From the NCBI GenBank assembly GCA_024276745.1, contig JAJRWN010000009.1, forward strand, positions 1 to 39,249: a DNA stretch of 39,249 nucleotides, in the 5' to 3' direction. The notes under the pieces are model-generated. The model saw only the letters and a list, made by a program, of their open reading frames with translations. It ran no database searches and had not been told where the DNA came from. Source of the stretch: Bacteroidota bacterium (lineage in GTDB: Bacteria; Bacteroidota; Bacteroidia; Chitinophagales; S012-47). The position numbers and the translations under genes are program-made. Shown one piece after another: positions 2,099 to 30,566 of the stretch. The number at the start of each line of letters is the position of its first letter. The stretch's first letter is position 1.

Positions 2099-3244
2099 TC
2101 ACTTTTGCTTATTGCTTGCAGCTATTTCAAGAATATGCTTGACCATAGTATTCCAGCTAAAGCGTTTTTTTTCTTCTTCCATATTAGCACGATATACCGG
2201 TTCGAGCTTTTCTTTAAAATATTTTTCAAGCTTTTCAGCAATCATTTGCGAATCCGGCTCAGAGACCAATCCAACGACATTATCCTTTACAATTTCGGGT
2301 AAACCGCCTACATTGGTCACTATCATGGGTAGGTTAAAATGATATGCAATTTGAGCTACTCCGCTTTGAGTAGCCGAGCGATAGGTTTGAGCCAAAACAT
2401 TGGCTGCTGAAAAATACAGAAACACTTTGCTATCGGGAATAAATTCATTGAATTCATGAATCTTTGATTTCAAACCGGGCTCATCGAGCCATTCGGCATA
2501 AGCATTTCGCGATTCATAATATTCACCGGCAATGATAAGATGCACTTGATCGTTTTGAAACCGGCAATTTTTAAACGCTTTGAGTAACAAATCCAAACCT
2601 TTATAGTGTCTGATAAAGCCAAAGAAAAGTAAATATTGGACGGTAGGATCGAGGCCTAATTGCCGGCAAGCTTCTGTTTTGGATATTGCATTTCCAAAAT
2701 GATCGAACATCGGATGCGGACTTAGCACACGGGGTTTATGCTTATCAAAGCGATCGATATCGTGTAGCACCGAGGCCGATTGGGCTACCAATCCGTCCAT
2801 TGCTTTGATAAAATATTTTGAAAATAATTGATCACCAGGCCGGTGTTCGTGAGGAATAAGATTGTCAAGGATGCTAACAATACGGGTAAATCGATTTTTG
2901 TGTACAATACGGGCGATGCTACCAAAACAAGGACCCATGAAGGGAAGCCAGTATTTAAAAATCAGTAAATCAGGCTGATTTTTTTTAATTTCCCTGCCCA
3001 CTTTAAACCAGTTTAATGGATTCACCGAGTTCACTTTCCGGTAAATAGATAATCCTTCAGGGGCAGGTTCTGATGAATATTGTGTTTTTCCCGGGAATAA
3101 AAAAGAAGGATACTGCAGCGTAAACGTATAGATTGTCACTTTATATCCTTGGTCGATAAACGCTTTGGCTAGCCTTTCGTTGTAGTTGGCAAGGCCTCCT
3201 CTAAAAGGCCATGACGGCCCCAATAAAACAAGCTGTTTTTTCAA
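2099..3244 (-). CDS. glycosyltransferase family 4 (GT-B fold)
   Basis: A cytoplasmic nucleotide-sugar glycosyltransferase of 381 residues; donor and acceptor are unknown. The N-terminal half begins LVLLGPSWPFRGGLANYNERL, a GT-B acceptor domain. The C-terminal half has FFGFIRHYKGLDLLLKAF, then NVGGLPEIV and VGLVSEPD near residues 315-335, the usual GT4 donor-binding pattern. The start codon is TTG at 3244, overlapping the stop of the upstream GT2 gene as TTGA; the fold begins at once, so this start is more likely than any internal Met. It lies between a GT2 gene and hddA, so a role in building a heptose-containing surface glycan is reasonable but inferred. Confidence 0.88.
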   Translation of the reverse strand: MKKQLVLLGPSWPFRGGLANYNERLAKAFIDQGYKVTIYTFTLQYPSFLFPGKTQYSSEPAPEGLSIYRKVNSVNPLNWFKVGREIKKNQPDLLIFKYWLPFMGPCFGSIARIVHKNRFTRIVSILDNLIPHEHRPGDQLFSKYFIKAMDGLVAQSASVLHDIDRFDKHKPRVLSPHPMFDHFGNAISKTEACRQLGLDPTVQYLLFFGFIRHYKGLDLLLKAFKNCRFQNDQVHLIIAGEYYESRNAYAEWLDEPGLKSKIHEFNEFIPDSKVFLYFSAANVLAQTYRSATQSGVAQIAYHFNLPMIVTNVGGLPEIVKDNVVGLVSEPDSQMIAEKLEKYFKEKLEPVYRANMEEEKKRFSWNTMVKHILEIAASNKQK

Positions 3245-4182
3245 TTTTCTGGAATCGATTTATCAATTAAATATTGGTTTCTGTCCGGAGCATTACGCGA
3301 AACCAATTCGGCTATAAAACCGGTAAGAAACAGTTGAGTACCGAGTATAATGGTTAATAAGCCAAAATAGAATAAAGGACGTTCGGTCATGTGGTAGATT
3401 CCATATACATATTTGGTAACTGTTAAATAAACCAGAATGACAAAACCGACCAAAAACATGAGTGAACCTAAAAGCCCGAATAAATGCATTGGTTTTCTGG
3501 CAAAGCGGGTAACAAACATGATAGAAAGCAAATCCAAAAATCCACGCATATACCGTTCTATTCCATATTTCGATTTTCCGTATTGCCGTTTGCGGTGGTT
3601 TACAATTTTTTCACCAATTCGATAATAACCGGCTCTTTTCACAATCACCGGTATAAAACGGTGCATTTCGCCATATACTTCTATATTTTTAATGACTTCG
3701 TTTTTATAGGCTTTCAGGCCGCAATTCATGTCGTGCAGCTTAATACCGGACATCACTCTAAGAACTTTGTTGTAAAGTTTTGAAGGAAGCCGTTTGCTTA
3801 TCGGATCATGGCGTTTCTTTTTCCAACCGCTCACCAAATCATACTCTTCTTCCACAATCATTTTATACAAAGCCGGTATTTCGGCAGGGTCATCCTGCAA
3901 GTCGGCATCAAAAGTTATCACTACATTTCCTTTTGCCAATCTAAACCCTTCGTTAAGGGCAGCCGCTTTACCATAATTTCTTTGAAATTTTATGGCTTTC
4001 AGGTGTTGATCATTTTCATAAAGTTTTGAAATTACTTCCCAGGTATTGTCACGACTGCCATCATCCACCATGATAATTTCATAGCTTAATGAAGAATCAT
4101 TAAGCACATCTGTAATTTGCTTATGCAGCAAAGCTAAAGATTCGGCTTCTTCGAAAGCAGGTATGATCAATGATAGATTCAT
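3241..4182 (-). CDS. GT2 glycosyltransferase, DPM1/GtrB-like, membrane anchored
   Basis: Probably moves a sugar from a nucleotide donor onto undecaprenyl phosphate at the inner face of the inner membrane. In 313 residues it shows the GT-A start MNLSLIIPAFEE, VDDGS at 39-43, FDADLQDDP at 91-99 with the metal-binding DxD, and two C-terminal membrane helices at about 233-256 and 270-292. This layout is that of dolichyl-phosphate-mannose synthase, GtrB and ArnC. I place the start at the ATG at 4182, ten bases after the DUF4199 stop. The frame stays open to 4245, but the extra 21 residues would overlap DUF4199 and precede the fold. The exact sugar cannot be read from sequence. Confidence 0.9.
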   Translation of the reverse strand: MNLSLIIPAFEEAESLALLHKQITDVLNDSSLSYEIIMVDDGSRDNTWEVISKLYENDQHLKAIKFQRNYGKAAALNEGFRLAKGNVVITFDADLQDDPAEIPALYKMIVEEEYDLVSGWKKKRHDPISKRLPSKLYNKVLRVMSGIKLHDMNCGLKAYKNEVIKNIEVYGEMHRFIPVIVKRAGYYRIGEKIVNHRKRQYGKSKYGIERYMRGFLDLLSIMFVTRFARKPMHLFGLLGSLMFLVGFVILVYLTVTKYVYGIYHMTERPLFYFGLLTIILGTQLFLTGFIAELVSRNAPDRNQYLIDKSIPEN

Positions 4183-4192
4183 GAGAAAAGAA

Positions 4193-4705
4193 TTACTCGG
4201 CTTGTTTGTTTTGAAATACCAATCCGGCAATGATAGATAACACAAAACCTACAACCACATTCCACAGCAGGCTAAAGAACAAGATAAAACCGGGAGTCAT
4301 AAATTTTTCTACCATTTTCATTTGTTGCTCCAAAGTATCGCCTTCTACCCCCCGTTCTATAGCATTTTCACGAGCAACACGTAGTGCTTCATCCATGTAT
4401 CCGGGATCAAGGACATTGGCATATATCAGGAAGTATATCGCAGCAACAATTCCGGATATTAAGGCAATAACAGTTCCCAATCCCAGGGCATTACTTACCC
4501 GTAAATAACCGTTTAGTTCGTGATCCCGATAACTTTTTATGGCAATAAATAAGCTGATAGCCAATATCAAATAAGCAACCCAATTCAATGTATTATTGTA
4601 GGATTCACCAATTAGATAAAGAATAAGATTGAAAATAACAACTGCAAAACCGGTGATTAAGCCCCATTTCAAGGCTAATGGCCACATAGATGTTTTTGTT
4701 TCCAT
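4193..4705 (-). CDS. DUF4199 four-helix membrane protein
   Basis: A 170-residue integral membrane protein resembling DUF4199, a family common in Bacteroidota with no established function. Hydrophobic segments lie at about 9-31, 39-57, 72-95 and 138-161. A polar, charged loop sits between the third and fourth helices, at about residues 97-135. It starts with ATG at 4705, four bases after the stop of the dihydroorotase-like gene, and ends ten bases before the GT2 start, so all three are probably one transcript. DUF4199 genes often sit beside a GT2 gene of this type in Bacteroidota genomes, as recalled rather than searched. Its job may be linked to the glycosyltransferase, but nothing in the sequence shows this. 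Confidence 0.85.
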   Translation of the reverse strand: METKTSMWPLALKWGLITGFAVVIFNLILYLIGESYNNTLNWVAYLILAISLFIAIKSYRDHELNGYLRVSNALGLGTVIALISGIVAAIYFLIYANVLDPGYMDEALRVARENAIERGVEGDTLEQQMKMVEKFMTPGFILFFSLLWNVVVGFVLSIIAGLVFQNKQAE

Positions 4706-4709
4706 ACGA

Positions 4710-5984
4710 TTAGGTTTTATTTAAATAAAGTTGATTGTTATTAATAATGCCAAGGGGTTTTCCGGTCAATTTCAAACCAATAAAAGGTGAATTAGCCGAT
4801 TTACTTTTGATATTATTTTTGGTAAATGTCCAACTTTGTTTAGGATCAAATATAGTTAAATTTGCTTTTTGCCCTATAGCAATTTGGGGGATTGGTAAAC
4901 CCAATATTTTTCGTGGGTTTATGGCTATTGCTTCGATAAGCTTGCTTAGTGGCAATTTATTTTGTAAGGCGGTATTGGCAACGGCAAAAGCAGTTTGCAG
5001 ATTAATCATACCATATTCCGAATAAGCAAATTCTTTCTTTTTAGCATCCATATCTTGGGGATTGTGATCGCTGCAAATCACATCAATGATACCCTCTTTC
5101 AATCCTTTTATAAGTGCCCGTTTGTCTTTCAAAGTTCTCAATACAGGACTAAGTTTATAATTGGAATTATACGATTCAAGCAGATGCTCATCGAGCAAAA
5201 GATGATAGGCGGTAACCGATGCAGTGACCGGGATATGTTTGTTTTTTGCCCGTTTCACCAACTGCACCGAACCGGCCGCAGAAAGTTTTAATAAATGACA
5301 AGGAGTATTAGTGTATTCAGATAAGTAGATATCGCGATTGACCATTAATTCTTCTGATATAGCAGGTTCACCCGGCATTCCTAATCTTACACTGGTTTCG
5401 CCTTCATTCATCTGAGCATCAGGGCTTAAGGAGCTGGTTTTAGGGAAATGTAATATTGGTTTTCCTACTCCTTTGGCATATAGCAAACATCTCATCATCA
5501 ATCCGGCATCAGCAACAGATTGATCGGCATCGGTAAAGGCAGCGGCACCTGCACGAGCCATATCAATCATCTCTGTTATGTCGGCTCCGTTTAGATTTTG
5601 GCTGATTGCACCGTAGGGAAAGATGTCAACAATATTGTTTTTAGTTTTATTAATTACGTACTCAATACTTCCTTTGCTATCGAGCACCGGATGGGTATCT
5701 GGCCTGAGGCCGATTCCGGTAAATCCTCCGGAAGCAGCTGCCAGGGATCCACTTTGTAAATCTTCTTTGTATTCATATCCGGGATCACAAAATCCGGCAT
5801 ATAAATCGAACCAACCAGGAGATACATAGCTGTTTTTAATAGTGATTTCTTTCGTACCGGAGGTGTTTTTCAGGTTTTTACCGATGGAAACAATTTGCCC
5901 GTTACGAATTAAAATATCAAGAATACGAATGCGTGAATATTGAGAAGGATCGATAATTCTGGCTGAACGCAACAGCAGGTCCAT
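4710..5984 (-). CDS. dihydroorotase-like protein lacking metal ligands (probable pseudo-enzyme)
   Basis: Belongs to the class I dihydroorotase/amidohydrolase family by overall sequence: GYEYKEDLQSG at 70-79, AASGGFTGIGLRPDTHP at 83-99 and a C-terminal NPRKILGLP segment, over 424 residues, the usual length. Active members carry an HxHxR metal and substrate motif before the conserved PG. Here the equivalent is Tyr62-Ala-Gly64-Phe-Cys66, so both zinc histidines and the arginine are gone. The later HxxH region reads HLLK, with Lys233 in place of a ligand His. His179 and Asp306 remain. It is therefore unlikely to hydrolyse dihydroorotate. Known inactive relatives (PyrC') form a scaffold for aspartate transcarbamoylase, which is one possible role. 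ATG at 5984, 38 bases after the BatA-like gene. Confidence 0.88.
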   Translation of the reverse strand: MDLLLRSARIIDPSQYSRIRILDILIRNGQIVSIGKNLKNTSGTKEITIKNSYVSPGWFDLYAGFCDPGYEYKEDLQSGSLAAASGGFTGIGLRPDTHPVLDSKGSIEYVINKTKNNIVDIFPYGAISQNLNGADITEMIDMARAGAAAFTDADQSVADAGLMMRCLLYAKGVGKPILHFPKTSSLSPDAQMNEGETSVRLGMPGEPAISEELMVNRDIYLSEYTNTPCHLLKLSAAGSVQLVKRAKNKHIPVTASVTAYHLLLDEHLLESYNSNYKLSPVLRTLKDKRALIKGLKEGIIDVICSDHNPQDMDAKKKEFAYSEYGMINLQTAFAVANTALQNKLPLSKLIEAIAINPRKILGLPIPQIAIGQKANLTIFDPKQSWTFTKNNIKSKSANSPFIGLKLTGKPLGIINNNQLYLNKT

Positions 5985-6022: not shown

Positions 6023-8038
6023 TTAACCTTTCAAAAATCGTAAGAGTAATATCTCAATGGCTAAAAATCCAAGCGCTAAGATAAGGCAAAGTTTCCATAA
6101 TGCTCTTTTCGATTCAAAACCATTAAGTGTATTAAATGAAAGCGTGGAATGATTAGCCATAATATTTACATTAGGCTGAGGATATTTTTCTTTTAATGAT
6201 TTTGCATCGAAAACAGACAAATCAGATTCCTGCCTGTTGTAATTAAAAGCAAGAATATCAATGGGTGAAGCATCTTTCAATCCCAATTTATAAAATCCTG
6301 ATTCGTTGATAATTGTTCCTAAATGCAAAAGAATATCCTGACCGGTTTTTTGTTGCTTGGCAATCAGATCGATATGATCATTGCTTAAATGAAGCATTTG
6401 ATTATTTTCTACATCAACCTGACGTGCTCGTATTATTTGTTCTTTACCAATGGTTACCGAAGTTCGCAAAGAAGATGCTTCGCTAGCGGCCATTTGAAAA
6501 ATGGCTACTGCAAACAATTCACTTTTAGGCCAATTGCTATACTCGCTCAGTGCCGGAACAGAGGATAGGAATATATGCCCTTTACCCAAAGCGGTTGAAG
6601 CCATAAATAGATCACCATTTTCGAGTGTCATCAGTTTTTGTATATAGGCTTTGTTTAAGTATTGCAAGGGATAATACTTCTTACACTTCGGAAGTCTGAG
6701 TTTTTTCTGTATCTTTTCAAAAACATCATAAAACAGACCATATTTTTGTTCGAGATAGTTTACCCCGTTCGGCTGGTTTTTCAATGATGCGTAATGAATG
6801 CCACTCATATCGTTTATCCAATTATTCAAGGTTGAAGATGCAATTGTTTTTGAGGGTAAAATAAGCAGGCTTCCACCCTGTTTCACATATTTTTCCAATT
6901 GTTGAGCAAATCCGCTGCTTATATTTGCAATACGATTCAAAACCAATAAGCTATACTTGTTTAGCCCGTTCAGATTCACTTGTTTTATATGCATCGATTC
7001 TATCTGCATAAGTCCGGGAATCTGCATTGCTTTTAAATATTCAGAGGCATTTCCATCGTTCAGCTCTAAAACCTGAAATGAAGATTTCACATAGTATCGC
7101 TGAAAATAGCTGTCATCAAATTGTACCGGATAATCCTGAATACTCAATTTCAAAAGGTTCCAGCCCATGGCAGAAAAGCGGAATGGAATCGTATCGACCA
7201 GGCTAGTGTTTGCTTCTATGTCAATTTCATCTATTCCTTTTCGTTCGTCATTAATAAACACACTCAAAGGAATGGAATGAACGGCTTCCTTACTGTAATT
7301 ATGGATACGTACCATTAATTTATTTTCTCTTTCGAGTAAAAATACCGGTGCATCAAGCCAGCACGAATCAATGGAAAGATTTGCCGGTACACTTGCTTTG
7401 GCCGGCAACAGGTTATACTGAATACTTGAATCGGGTATCAAATCAGTCTTGTTTTGTTGAAAATCTGAAAGCAAATACACAATACCATGTGTTTTGTTTC
7501 GGAATATTTCTTTGACGTTTTGATTAATTTGCTCCAGCCCGGGCCCTAGCGGGCAAACCCGGATGCGGTCAACAGCTTGTAAAGCTTCTTCGCGCGAAAT
7601 TTCACCCTGATAAGTGGCATTTTTGTTATTAGTGATTAAATAAAATCGTGCCGATACCGGAAAACTTAACAATAGCTGATGGGCTGTTTCTTTGCTTTGA
7701 TCAAGCAGATTAATTTGTTTCCCGGCAGCTTCCATACTAAACGAATTATCGATATATATGACGTATGCTTGTTGTTCTGTTTTCGAATAGCCGGTTTCAT
7801 CAGAAATATAGGGCTGTGCGAAAGCAAGAATTAAAGCACTTAAAGCAAGCAAGCGGCTGATTAACACCAGTAAATGTTTGATATTTGATTTTGAAGCTGT
7901 TTCTTCTTTGATTTCCTTTAAAAAACGAACGTTTGAGAAATAAATCTTTTTAAATCGTCTGAAACTAAACAGATGTATAATGACAGGAATTGCCAACAAC
8001 AAAAATGCCCAAAGAAAAGCAGGATAAACGAATTGCAT
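6023..8038 (-). CDS. BatA-domain vWA membrane protein
   Basis: A 671-residue inner-membrane protein starting MQFVYPAFLWAFLLLAIPVI, the BatA / aerotolerance N-terminal domain with two membrane helices (about 5-24 and 55-74). A von Willebrand A-like domain follows, with DNSFS at 97-101 matching the DxSxS metal-binding pattern. The long middle region is probably periplasmic and beta-rich, and a final helix lies at about 648-667. Such proteins are widespread in Bacteroidota beside a dihydroorotase-like gene, and their function is not settled; the link of Bat proteins to oxygen tolerance is disputed. It opens the minus-strand run that ends with the heptose genes. A TAATTTTG sequence at 8046-8053 fits the phylum's -7 element but would give an almost leaderless mRNA. 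Confidence 0.88.
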   Translation of the reverse strand: MQFVYPAFLWAFLLLAIPVIIHLFSFRRFKKIYFSNVRFLKEIKEETASKSNIKHLLVLISRLLALSALILAFAQPYISDETGYSKTEQQAYVIYIDNSFSMEAAGKQINLLDQSKETAHQLLLSFPVSARFYLITNNKNATYQGEISREEALQAVDRIRVCPLGPGLEQINQNVKEIFRNKTHGIVYLLSDFQQNKTDLIPDSSIQYNLLPAKASVPANLSIDSCWLDAPVFLLERENKLMVRIHNYSKEAVHSIPLSVFINDERKGIDEIDIEANTSLVDTIPFRFSAMGWNLLKLSIQDYPVQFDDSYFQRYYVKSSFQVLELNDGNASEYLKAMQIPGLMQIESMHIKQVNLNGLNKYSLLVLNRIANISSGFAQQLEKYVKQGGSLLILPSKTIASSTLNNWINDMSGIHYASLKNQPNGVNYLEQKYGLFYDVFEKIQKKLRLPKCKKYYPLQYLNKAYIQKLMTLENGDLFMASTALGKGHIFLSSVPALSEYSNWPKSELFAVAIFQMAASEASSLRTSVTIGKEQIIRARQVDVENNQMLHLSNDHIDLIAKQQKTGQDILLHLGTIINESGFYKLGLKDASPIDILAFNYNRQESDLSVFDAKSLKEKYPQPNVNIMANHSTLSFNTLNGFESKRALWKLCLILALGFLAIEILLLRFLKG

Positions 8039-8302: not shown

Positions 8303-8376
8303 CGGGGTGTAGCTCAGCTCGGTAGAGTACACGTCTGGGGGGCGTGGGGTCGCAAGTTCAAATCTTGTCACCCCGA
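8303..8376 (+). tRNA. tRNA-Pro(GGG)
   Basis: A full cloverleaf folds: acceptor CGGGGTG with CACCCCG, D stem GCTC with GAGT, anticodon stem CACGT with GCGTG around loop CTGGGGG, giving anticodon GGG, and T stem GCAAG with CTTGT around TTCAAAT. The discriminator is A and CCA is not encoded. It is the only plus-strand gene between two long minus-strand units. Confidence 0.95.
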
Positions 8377-8437
8377 CAAAACAGATAAAAACTTTTACTG
8401 ACTTCCGGTAATGGTTTTTTGAATGTATTAGAATAGC

Positions 8438-24874: not shown

Positions 24875-25978
24875 TTATAATGATAAATAGGGTGTAAGTT
24901 TACGATATAATTCATCATCAACCAAGAAGCTGGTTTTAATCTCTTCAATTGATTTAAAAGCTACCCGGTTTCTCCGGTTTACAATGTATTCGGCCAGTGC
25001 TCTGCCGATATACGGATGCTGTTCCAGGATCTCAAAACGGCTTTGATTGAGGCTTACTTTTTTTATTTCATGGGTATCGATATAAATTTTAGCTCTGATT
25101 GATTCCAATTGTTTCATTTTAAAAAATGAAATTTCAAGCAATTGTTCCACTTTGACGTATCCTCCCAAATGATTCCTGTATTCAATGATTTTAGTGGAAA
25201 AATAAGATCCTATTCCCGGCAAAGACTTTAACAGAGTAGTATCGGCATGATTCAAATCAATTTTGATATTTCCGGTGATTGATTCTGCCTTTGGATTTTG
25301 CTCTTGCATAAACGAATCGAGCAAAATACTGTCGATTGCTAAATATGGCTTTATTCTTTGGAATAATGTAGTGTCGATACCATATACTTTTTTCAAATCA
25401 TTTTTTGATTTAAAAAATCCAGATGCTTGCCGGTAACGGACTATCCGGCCGGCATAAACGGCTCCAATGCCGGGAAGATTTTGCCAATCTTCAACTCTTG
25501 CCGAATTGATTTCGACCGGTTTGATACGATTTTCTGTTTTGTTGTACGCTTTCCATGATGATGCTTTATCAAGTTGTATGTAAGGATACAAGGCCAGGTA
25601 TTCTTCTTTACTGATAAGATAGAGTTTAAGAAAATCTACTTTATGATAAAAGTAACCTCCTTTATTCCTATAATTTATAAGCGCTTCAACTTCTTTATTA
25701 TCCAAACCAAGTTTTAACAAGTCTGCAGCTGTAACCGTATTGGGATTAAAGGGAAAATAGTTTGACGCCCCTTTTAAACTATCATGCATTCGGGCTTGGA
25801 GTTTATGCTCGATGGAATCGACTCCGGGAGGTATCAGAAATTGATATTGACCTGTCGCTTGTCCGGCAGGATAAATAATGGGTAAGACAGATAATACAAC
25901 AATAAGCAGGCATAAGATAATCAAACCTCTTTTCTCAGAAGCCGAAAAGGTAAAATAGTGTTTCAGATATTGTTTCAT
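24875..25978 (-). CDS. membrane-anchored helix-hairpin-helix protein (ComEA-like repeats)
   Basis: A 367-residue protein with one N-terminal membrane helix (about 17-38), after a basic cytoplasmic tail, and a periplasmic part made of four helix-hairpin-helix units. They start near FNPNTVTAADLLKLGL, EINSARVEDWQNLPGIG, DLNHADTTLLKSLPGIG and SLNQSRFEILEQHPYIG; units two and three hold the classic LPGIG hairpin. Such motifs bind DNA backbones non-specifically, as in the competence receptor ComEA, so DNA uptake or envelope DNA binding is possible but unproven. I prefer the ATG at 25978 over a TTG five codons earlier, since AGGG lies just before it. It follows the AGCS gene by about 50 bases. Confidence 0.85.
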   Translation of the reverse strand: MKQYLKHYFTFSASEKRGLIILCLLIVVLSVLPIIYPAGQATGQYQFLIPPGVDSIEHKLQARMHDSLKGASNYFPFNPNTVTAADLLKLGLDNKEVEALINYRNKGGYFYHKVDFLKLYLISKEEYLALYPYIQLDKASSWKAYNKTENRIKPVEINSARVEDWQNLPGIGAVYAGRIVRYRQASGFFKSKNDLKKVYGIDTTLFQRIKPYLAIDSILLDSFMQEQNPKAESITGNIKIDLNHADTTLLKSLPGIGSYFSTKIIEYRNHLGGYVKVEQLLEISFFKMKQLESIRAKIYIDTHEIKKVSLNQSRFEILEQHPYIGRALAEYIVNRRNRVAFKSIEEIKTSFLVDDELYRKLTPYLSL

Positions 25979-26025
25979 CCCTGATTTTTTCAATCAACGG
26001 GAGCAAACAATCGTAATCTTTCGGT

Positions 26026-27626: not shown

Positions 27627-30566
27627 TTATTGAATAACAAATGCTTTATTCAGTATATTTTTACCGGCTACAAAGCGCAACCAATAATGCCCGGAAGCAA
27701 AATCATGTAAAGAGATTCCGGTAAACCCATTGCTAATATCATTTGTTTCATATACATTGCGTCCCAAATCATCAAGAATACTTAAAGTCGTATGGCCTGA
27801 TTCTAATCCGTTCAAATTGATCATCAAGTAATCTTTTGCAGGATTCGGATAAATCTGTAGTCTAATTTCAGCTTGATCAATACCAATATTTATATCAGCT
27901 GCTTCATCATACAAATAAAGATCATCAACACCTGCTTCTACAATACTACCACCATCAAAAGGCAGACCGGTGATTAAACTGTCGGAAGCTACAAAACGCA
28001 GGCTTACCGTAGTCGTTGGTGTCACGTAATCGGCAACCCTGAAAGCATGTTTACGCCAGCGTAAATCAGAGCGGTCGGTACGTTCTACTTTTACCCAGCT
28101 TGAGCCATCATTAGAGATAAACACTTTCCAGGTATCGTTGCCCGGATTAGCTCCACCGGCCGGATCATTGATATACCATCGCCAATATGAGAAAGCGGGG
28201 ATTGTATAATTAGTTAAATCAAATACAGGCGATTGTAAAGTAGTGTGCCCGTCATCTACGTCATTGACGCCCATGGAAGCCCCTAAAGCCGTGTTGCCGG
28301 TAACGGCACAAATATTCAAATTCGCTCCTTCTGTAGTATGATCGGTGCCGGTTTGAACAATATTCTGCATAAATAGATCTGAATAGCTTGGTGTGGGTGA
28401 ATTGATATCCCACTGACCTGTTGAAGCATCGTCTGTTCCATCTGGATCAACAATCCAGTTTCCGAAAGTATTATCATAATCTTCCTTTTCTTTAAGGTCA
28501 AACCCAACCAATACCTGAAAGGGAATGTTCGGGTCAGCGTCATTGGCTAAAAAAGGTTCGACAACTGCAGCATTTCCAAATATATCGCTTACCGTAAAAT
28601 AATAATCAACAATGGTTCCTTTGGCTTGTGCCGGTATAGTGGCCGAATATTGGGTGCCGGAATTGTGCACCAATGGAGTAGTCACCCATTGACTATCCCG
28701 GTGTACGCGATAGTGCAAATCGGCATTTCCGAGATAAACCGGAAGATCTACAATCAGGGTAACATCTATTGAAATTGGAGTATTCTCAGGCTCCACAAGT
28801 AATTCCTGATGAATCAGGGTAGAATTGGTAATCAGAGTAATGCCATGACGTGCAAAAGCCTGAATAATAGCTGTATCATTTGGTGTTCCGTTGGTTAAAT
28901 CTGCATCATTATCATCAGCCAGCAAGCAACTAATAAGCACATCCCGGTAAAGTAAACCTTCCATGCCACCGGGTTGCATATCGGTAGCCAACAGGGTTCC
29001 GGCAAAAAGTGACGACATAACAGGCATATCATGACCAAGATTTACATACAGATCCCACCATGCACCGGCAATGATTTCGCCATCGGCATGAACTTCACCG
29101 ACCAAATCCTGAGGATAGACAGCCGGAGCCTGATCATAGCGTCTTACATAAGTAGATGAGTTGCCCGAAAAACCTTGTCCGAGTATAGGGTTTTTGGTAA
29201 TCATAAAACCCCAAATATCAGAATAGCCTTCGCCTAATGCACCATTAGCAAAATTTCCTCCTAAATAATCGTAGTATAAATCGCTTATGCCATGACCGTA
29301 TTCGTGATATACAATATCATCAAACAAGGCCGTAGAAGGACAGCCACTCCCGGCCGCAAAGAAATTTACATCGCCATTATAAAACGCATTGCATGATCCT
29401 GATGTAATACCTACAATCGTATTGATGGGTGTATCCATAGCCGTAAAACCGGATTGCAATAAAGTTTTCATGTAATCATGAACAGTACTTACATGAAAAT
29501 AGGCCGAGATAGCCGAAGTGTCGGCATAGGAATCAAAAATTTCTAAATTACTTCCTGCCTGCAAACTATCGGTAAAGCTTGCTGAATAAGTAGCCGGATC
29601 AAGCATAGCTTTGCTCCATCTTCCTTCCAGCGAAAAGGTAGCAGCTACCGGTACATTGAAATTTTGTGCTACATGACCGGAAGCATCTGCATAATAATTT
29701 CCACCGTTTACGGTCATTTTTATATAGGGTAAACGCGTTAAACTTCCACTTTGTAAAGGATTATTCACTACAGTTCCTTCAATTTCGGCCGATACAGGCA
29801 CCGGAGGGCTGAAAGTATGAATGGTGTTTTGACGGTATAATACCTGTCCGGTATGAGCATCTACCAGGGTATAGTATTTGCCGGGCACACCATCGGGATT
29901 GGCGGATTGAAGCCAAACCGGATAAACAAGATGATAGATATATCCTTTATCCAAAACCGGAACCGGTAAAATGGCCAGTTCAGAGGCTGTCTTTATCGAA
30001 ACAACAGGATAAGGTAGATTGGAAGCAGCCATCAAACCGGCTGTATGTGCATCGATATCTGCTTGCATATTCAGTTCCACATTCCGGTATACATTTAACC
30101 GGAAAGAAATGGCTTCGAATCGATTATCAAGTACTACTTGCGCATTGCTGAAAAGTATCTTCAAGCCTTGATGTACCTGACTAAAATTAACATACTTCAA
30201 GGTGTTTGAAGTGTTCATTTTCTCATTTTGCAATTCATCAAGCGGCAGTTGAAAAGCTCCCATATTGATACTCAAAAACTCAAGAGCTGCATCTCTGGCA
30301 TTATTGCTGTTGAGTGCAACCGGTGCGCCAAAAGCTCGATGCGGCAATTTGCTGAATTCATCGAAAGTAGCCGACCAATTGCCATATTGATTGATAAACT
30401 GAAGCCAGTTGTTTTGATTTCTTAAGCTATATTGAGCAAATGGATGTAAACGCGCTGTTTGGGCATTCACATATGTGACATTTCCTTCGTCACCGCTAAA
30501 TAAATCTGCTGCATAAGCTTGAATAAAAAGCAAGGCCATGAAGCAGGAAATAAGTACTTTTTTCAT
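27627..30566 (-). CDS. secreted M36 (fungalysin-type) metalloprotease with T9SS sorting domain
   Basis: A 979-residue exported zinc protease. Residues 1-19 form a signal peptide ending AYAA. A propeptide with the fungalysin/thermolysin layout covers roughly 20-240 (SLRNQNNWLQFINQYGNW, LEFLSINMGAF). The catalytic domain holds HEYGH at 421-425 with Glu422 as base, and GEGYSD at 445-450 supplies the third zinc ligand, Glu446. A beta-sandwich region follows at about 690-900, and the last 75 residues, starting QIYPNPAKDYLMI, are a type A Por/T9SS C-terminal sorting domain. It is probably secreted or surface-attached and digests proteins for nutrition. ATG at 30566. No T9SS machinery gene is recognised in this window. 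Confidence 0.93.
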   Translation of the reverse strand: MKKVLISCFMALLFIQAYAADLFSGDEGNVTYVNAQTARLHPFAQYSLRNQNNWLQFINQYGNWSATFDEFSKLPHRAFGAPVALNSNNARDAALEFLSINMGAFQLPLDELQNEKMNTSNTLKYVNFSQVHQGLKILFSNAQVVLDNRFEAISFRLNVYRNVELNMQADIDAHTAGLMAASNLPYPVVSIKTASELAILPVPVLDKGYIYHLVYPVWLQSANPDGVPGKYYTLVDAHTGQVLYRQNTIHTFSPPVPVSAEIEGTVVNNPLQSGSLTRLPYIKMTVNGGNYYADASGHVAQNFNVPVAATFSLEGRWSKAMLDPATYSASFTDSLQAGSNLEIFDSYADTSAISAYFHVSTVHDYMKTLLQSGFTAMDTPINTIVGITSGSCNAFYNGDVNFFAAGSGCPSTALFDDIVYHEYGHGISDLYYDYLGGNFANGALGEGYSDIWGFMITKNPILGQGFSGNSSTYVRRYDQAPAVYPQDLVGEVHADGEIIAGAWWDLYVNLGHDMPVMSSLFAGTLLATDMQPGGMEGLLYRDVLISCLLADDNDADLTNGTPNDTAIIQAFARHGITLITNSTLIHQELLVEPENTPISIDVTLIVDLPVYLGNADLHYRVHRDSQWVTTPLVHNSGTQYSATIPAQAKGTIVDYYFTVSDIFGNAAVVEPFLANDADPNIPFQVLVGFDLKEKEDYDNTFGNWIVDPDGTDDASTGQWDINSPTPSYSDLFMQNIVQTGTDHTTEGANLNICAVTGNTALGASMGVNDVDDGHTTLQSPVFDLTNYTIPAFSYWRWYINDPAGGANPGNDTWKVFISNDGSSWVKVERTDRSDLRWRKHAFRVADYVTPTTTVSLRFVASDSLITGLPFDGGSIVEAGVDDLYLYDEAADINIGIDQAEIRLQIYPNPAKDYLMINLNGLESGHTTLSILDDLGRNVYETNDISNGFTGISLHDFASGHYWLRFVAGKNILNKAFVIQ

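Follow-up and report, generated by a model that had tools for sequence, protein, structure and literature searches.

A dihydroorotase homologue without metal centre in Bacteroidia, probably a structural subunit of aspartate transcarbamoylase

Described systems and the gene in the window

In Pseudomonas the pyrC' gene, which codes for an inactive dihydroorotase (DHO) partner of aspartate transcarbamoylase (ATCase), presumably adjoins pyrB, and we take this adjacency not to be a strict requirement of class A2 ATCase. The quaternary types of ATCase were reportedly treated by Labedan and colleagues in 2004, in work that may touch on PyrC' in Bacteroidetes. Our literature search, in which subscription journals were thinly covered, found no report of PyrC' in Bacteroidetes. 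According to the available part of PMC7053772, PyrB of P. aeruginosa stays an inactive monomer as long as the pseudo-DHO has not joined it. For the active DHO of A. aeolicus, the available part of PMC3880350 gives D153 as a metal ligand and reports that alanine at the beta-site residues H180/H232 was without effect on catalysis.

The window analyzed here is a stretch of 39,249 nucleotides from a Bacteroidota draft genome of 2.3 Mb that is 90% complete. On its minus strand, positions 4710..5984 hold an intact open reading frame of 424 amino acids, which profile, alignment and model identify as a type-I DHO fold without metal centre (pyrC' in what follows). The product reaches 330 bits against TIGR00857 (dihydroorotase, curated cut-off 279), so it is a family member by descent, and stays under the cut-off of the 24 other profile models shown; automated annotation would be misleading here, as the original prediction had warned. 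Its nearest solved relative is the DHO of A. aeolicus (phmmer E 3e-72).

In the MAFFT alignment with that enzyme, codons 62-66 (5787..5801, minus strand, as for all codons given here) read Y-A-G-F-C where an active DHO has H-x-H-x-R, which means H61 replaced by Y62, H63 by G64 and R65 by C66. N95 has become D96 (5697..5699), D153 has become A153 (5526..5528), and the beta-site residues H180 and H232 have become F180 (5445..5447) and K233 (5286..5288). With N278 changed to S279 and H309 to Q310, D306 (5067..5069), the equivalent of D305, is the only one of ten compared site residues that is retained. At the five positions by which we recognize the enzyme (H61, H63, D153, R65 and N95) the protein has Y, G, A, C and D, respectively; R65 and N95 are, as we take them, substrate residues. 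Since A. aeolicus DHO works without the H180/H232 pair (PMC3880350, available part), K233 alone would mean little, and the argument for a lost metal centre is carried by H61, H63 and D153.

Translation confirmed the letters Y-A-G-F-C and K233 from which the original prediction had started, and its claim of a lost metal centre holds, all three alpha-site residues being replaced. The damage was understated, for the positions of D153, R65 and N95 have changed too; K233, offered as a lost ligand, is indeed a replacement, but at a beta-site position that the A. aeolicus enzyme can spare (PMC3880350, in its available part). Fold and length are kept as was claimed: the AlphaFold model (pLDDT 93.8) shows the type-I DHO fold across the full length and superimposes on A. 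aeolicus DHO 3d6n with TM 0.94 and Z 58. Thermus and Bacillus DHOs match the model equally well, so that the ATCase-bound DHO is not set apart by structure. No signal sequence is evident at the N-terminus.

Spread, conservation and the link to aspartate transcarbamoylase

A homologue beyond the paralogue background was found in 129 of the 149 class genomes searched, namely PyrC' in 128 and a homologue with complete site in one (G058). Presence was sorted by hand on E-value, and the genes of G017, G028 and G105, weak matches that adjoin BatA, were counted as PyrC' by hand. We read 125 of the 129 loci; G023, G057, G077 and G094, each with a PyrC' match, lie outside the fetched set. All ten site residues are present in one of these 125 (G058), and none of the 124 copies that we call dead keeps the site. 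The three alpha-site ligands occur together in 1/125 and HxH in 5/125. They are together in 0/80 of the named loci (Flavobacteriales, Chitinophagales, Saprospiraceae and other Bacteroidota; L194-L273), which are the best 80 among the matches listed and overlap in part with the 125.

The residue at H61 varies through the class (among others Q, R, H, G, N, F, K and Y). Site replacements differ from genome to genome, as they would in drift, with the rest of the protein conserved. How unequal is the loss? The reference set was 22 type-I DHOs with intact site, those of A. aeolicus, G058 and G388 plus 19 from beyond the class; 84 positions are at least 90% conserved in it. Across 204 class homologues scored, mean retention was 26% at the 9 catalytic positions against 78% at the 75 others; as the alignment reads, the loss falls mainly on catalytic positions. 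A few others, for example 154, 255, 307 and 313, are lost as well.

In the window's own genome PyrB is over the cut-off on another contig than pyrC' (G000:C21), and the profile search of this genome, 90% complete, gave no PyrI match. PyrI was over the cut-off in five of the 149 class genomes, all five without PyrC', and in 0/128 PyrC' genomes (Fisher 4e-5 on hand-sorted sets, inflated by kinship). One PyrC' genome (G134) has a sub-cut-off PyrI-like stretch with five internal stops, which was not counted. The order of G032, which is one of these five PyrI genomes, is probably Bacteroidales and presents the reverse picture in 198 genomes: PyrI is over the cut-off in 170 and found at E 1e-3 in 183, and the PyrC' profile detected PyrC' above paralogue-level scores (up to 196 bits) in 0/198. 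Genomes below G388 were judged there by score, known paralogues reaching 191, so that a strongly diverged PyrC' could hide among them. G388 itself gave the sole PyrC-profile match above paralogue level in this order; the gene has the full active set, with pyrB 3.6 kb away.

The type of PyrB follows the same division. In a tree of 64 rows, which sampled 35 of the 128 PyrC' genomes and left out four other transcarbamylases (L280-L283), these 35 PyrBs group with the PyrBs of outgroup pyrBC loci. Across a long branch (SH-aLRT 99) stand the PyrBs of the five PyrI genomes, of G388, of G414 (order of G032, no PyrI match) and of G096. PyrC' is missing where PyrB is of this other type (the PyrI genomes and G096) or was not found (G039, G079 and G113). 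The draft G096 is telling, as far as its sequence goes: it has the other-side PyrB and no PyrC', and its congeners G015, G059 and G128 keep both PyrC' and PyrB. The association of PyrC' with native PyrB gave a Fisher value of 3e-10, or 3e-9 without counting G021 as replaced, again inflated by kinship. These sets were made by hand: G110 was taken as BatA-less (N-terminal match only) and G025 as PyrB-less (sub-cut-off match), G021 was counted as replaced though the tree cannot place its PyrB, and PyrBs of genomes outside the tree sample were taken as native by score.

Several genomes depart from the rule. Seven genomes of families f45 and f53 (G043, G082, G116, G147; G061, G098, G130) have a long-branch PyrB but lack PyrC' as well as PyrI, so PyrB can dispense with PyrC'; a return to a lone trimer is possible in them. 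PyrC' is also absent from G106 and G136 (81% and 69% complete) and from G021, whose PyrB is too diverged for placement in the tree. G017 has a strongly diverged PyrC' and no PyrB match. As a separate observation, G039, G079 and G113, all of one family, lack PyrB, PyrC' and any good DHO match, and are possible pyrimidine auxotrophs.

Physical linkage to pyrB is found elsewhere in the phylum. In 4/4 genomes of family f65, which belongs to another class, a four-base overlap (ATGA) joins pyrB to a dead pyrC'; a second DHO-like gene lies elsewhere in them, with HxH, HCED and DHAPH motifs intact in L308, the sole one read. Outside the class, each of 19 further loci that were read has H61, H63, R65, N95, D153, H180, H232, D305 and H309 (19/19), with pyrB beside the intact pyrC in 6/19. 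Inside the class, no pyrB occurs in the flank read of 124/125 loci, the exception being the active G058; the nearest dead case is G108, with pyrB 2.9 kb away on the opposite strand. In a quick tree of 70 rows, from which the ten site columns were removed, the 40 sampled Bacteroidia PyrC' are separate from f65, with several long branches. An AU test on 43 rows did not reject a single clade (p 0.41), so the site may have been lost once or twice.

If PyrC' has lost its site, then we can ask: Which protein makes dihydroorotate? The window's genome has a second DHO, L002 (L002:1399-2739; NF006688, 665 bits), which has a largely intact site and likely is its working enzyme. The second pyrC with HxH that had been suggested for a search thus exists as a DHO, but its first metal position is Q-x-H, and all NF006688-type paralogues aligned (10/10) start with D-D-Q-V-H-F-R-E-P-G, the same Q-x-H. 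This type is over the cut-off in 131/149 class genomes and type-II DHO in one, G090, which is without the NF006688 type and whose own PyrC' (L117) is dead by site residues. G058, likewise without the NF006688 type, has its type-I enzyme with whole site directly behind pyrB. Both genomes would fit a PyrC' incapable of the DHO reaction.

Six PyrC' genomes have no NF006688 match over the cut-off (G017, G023, G024, G086, G089, G090), though G017 and G086 show a long match beneath it. The drafts G023, G024 and G089 (91, 97 and 85% complete) yielded no DHO other than PyrC'; L306 of G024 is an allantoinase by family score, and L304 of G023 looks like one from its neighbours.

Neighbouring genes and rival readings

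In the window, pyrC' lies in a gene run on the minus strand. A gene for a BatA-like membrane protein of 671 aa (6023..8038, by profile and model) is placed 38 nt upstream of it, a DUF4199 gene (4193..4705) 4 nt downstream, and a GT2 glycosyltransferase gene (3241..4245, by profile) belongs to the same run, all on the minus strand. At the end of the run, 462-2056 hold phosphoheptose isomerase-like and heptose 7-phosphate kinase-like genes, under curated cut-offs. Upstream of the BatA-like gene, a tRNA-Pro (8303-8377, plus strand) separates it from the rpoBC/DUF3467 run, so that BatA and PyrC' are probably transcribed from a promoter of their own. Elsewhere in the window are a helix-hairpin-helix (T2SSK-like) protein of 372 aa (24875-25993) and a metallopeptidase (M4/M36-like) with a secretion sorting tail (27627-30566).

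In the model of the BatA-like protein, helices occupy 7-25, 39-74 and 648-668, and the stretch between the two ends folds into beta and Rossmann-like domains. Against the PDB it gave partial matches to GH42 and IFT52 domains, domain hints only, with TM 0.2 for the whole model. On the basis of TIGR02226 for the N-terminus, and by our own reading, we take both ends as membrane anchors, and the bulk of the protein is probably periplasmic, by the positive-inside rule applied by eye to a charged loop near 26-54. A vWA-like part is presumed from the sequence.

Has PyrC' left pyrimidine synthesis to work with the BatA-like protein or the glycan genes? The original prediction, noting no pyr genes nearby, had suggested such a different job. 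Its observation on BatA was real and proved widespread. The gene lies directly upstream of pyrC' on the same strand in 102/125 loci (median gap 8.5 nt) and in 67/80 named loci, the latter being the best 80 among the matches listed and overlapping in part with the former. It co-occurs with PyrC' in 122/128 genomes, compared with 10/21 of the others (2e-7), about as clear as the PyrB/PyrI link, and G017 retains the BatA-PyrC' pair without a PyrB match. However, G141, G096, G039, G079 and G113 keep BatA without PyrC', and G035, G040, G052, G095 and G127 have PyrC' without a BatA match; because each persists without the other, they are not obligate partners. The probably periplasmic bulk of BatA also speaks against contact with a PyrC' whose start has no evident signal sequence. 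The glycan part of the setting is rarely detected: DUF4199 downstream in 10/125 loci and GT2 anywhere nearby in 19/125, counts that are minima, for the profiles were built on proteins of this window and 40/125 loci have less than 2.5 kb on one side. A glycan-linked role as a general explanation was dropped, such neighbours being detected only in a minority of loci. The argument from absent pyr neighbours is weakened in turn by a PyrC' that tracks the native PyrB type, excludes PyrI and overlaps pyrB in f65. We therefore regard a departure from pyrimidine synthesis as unlikely, and the BatA-pyrC' pair as an operon habit and not a complex, direct partnership being unlikely.

The other readings concern the pocket itself. 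A hydrolase working through another metal site or a metal-free mechanism would agree with the retention of D306 and H307, with the lack of another DHO in the searched drafts G023, G024 and G089, and with a Zur-regulated Pseudomonas PyrC paralogue without zinc residues that is reported active (PMC2770081, in its available part). It is hard to reconcile with the many residues found at each site position, which form no conserved replacement set across the class homologues, and with G090, where another DHO exists alongside the dead PyrC', and we hold it to be very unlikely. We give slightly less credit still, and thus little indeed, to a scaffold in which the vacated pocket now serves ATCase as a site for a regulatory ligand: H307, K315 and E194 are invariant, R283 nearly so, and these polar residues would line the old pocket, but all four are conserved in active DHOs too and are perhaps structural. 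That PyrC' is a decaying remnant without function we find scarcely believable. The catalytic residues are gone and a single copy, in G057 outside the fetched set, is split over two frames, but the reading frame is at least 389 aa in 125/125 fetched loci, identity of class homologues to the window protein is mostly 32-51%, and conservation away from the site is strong.

Proposed subunit and comparison with known systems

In our opinion PyrC' is most probably a catalytically dead DHO that is kept as a non-catalytic, structural subunit of a class-A2-like ATCase, the enzyme that acts just before DHO in pyrimidine synthesis, a reading to which we assign a probability of roughly 0.78. We build it on site loss within a conserved fold, on wide retention, on the presence of PyrB and a second DHO, on the exclusion of PyrI and on the overlap of pyrB with pyrC' elsewhere in the phylum, all of these read from sequence. 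Site loss with conserved fold had already been recognized in the original prediction as the pattern of inactive DHO partners of ATCase, and this agrees with our results.

By this proposal, PyrB, encoded elsewhere in the genome, and PyrC' would assemble into a class-A2-like holoenzyme in which PyrC' dimers link two PyrB trimers, the arrangement reported for A. aeolicus and Pseudomonas. PyrC' would stabilise the PyrB catalytic trimer, and dihydroorotate would be supplied by the separate NF006688-type enzyme. The inactivity of PyrC', its complex with PyrB, the stoichiometry, which would be 6:6 in class A2, and the need of PyrB for PyrC' are putative. Class A2 membership is presumed likewise, from sequence features that agree with the class and a position in the genome, away from pyrB, that does not.

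The gene annotated in this class as a core pyrimidine enzyme is very probably not that enzyme, which is a warning for metabolic models and for inhibitor work relying on such "pyrC". If the reading is true, much of the class joins the class-A2 ATCase group known from Pseudomonas, and one type of holoenzyme has given way to another inside a single class, with PyrI taking the place of PyrC'. A bolder version would have most Bacteroidia outside the PyrI order running ATCase on a dead DHO whose gene is remote from pyrB and tied to the BatA-like gene, co-expressed with it and perhaps tuned by envelope status, and the PyrI order swapping the whole holoenzyme for PyrB-PyrI; we consider this version rather doubtful. 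The reading is directly testable, with the f65, G058, G388 and G090 genomes as natural experiments.

Among described systems, PyrC' shares with the A. aeolicus class A1 ATCase, in which PyrB works with an active DHO (3d6n), its fold, its length and its best sequence match, but the metal and substrate residues of that DHO are lost here. The inactive DHO-like domain of the fungal CAD-like protein is also a dead DHO for which a structural role has been proposed (PMC9863657, available part); it is a fused domain there and a separate protein here. The NF006688-type DHO has the amidohydrolase fold in the same phylum, with 2gwn of P. gingivalis as a solved DHO of the phylum, and unlike PyrC' its site is intact except for the Q-x-H start.

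The closest resemblance is to the class A2 PyrC' of Pseudomonas (PMC7053772): full length, no zinc ligands, a separate DHO, PyrB present and no PyrI found. In contrast to Pseudomonas, the gene lies here mostly behind a BatA-like gene and not beside pyrB, and the complex of this PyrC' with PyrB is a predicted one. New are the spread through the class, the position unlinked from pyrB and the mutual exclusion with PyrI; a further difference from the Pseudomonas system is that 128 of the 149 class genomes sampled carry this PyrC'.
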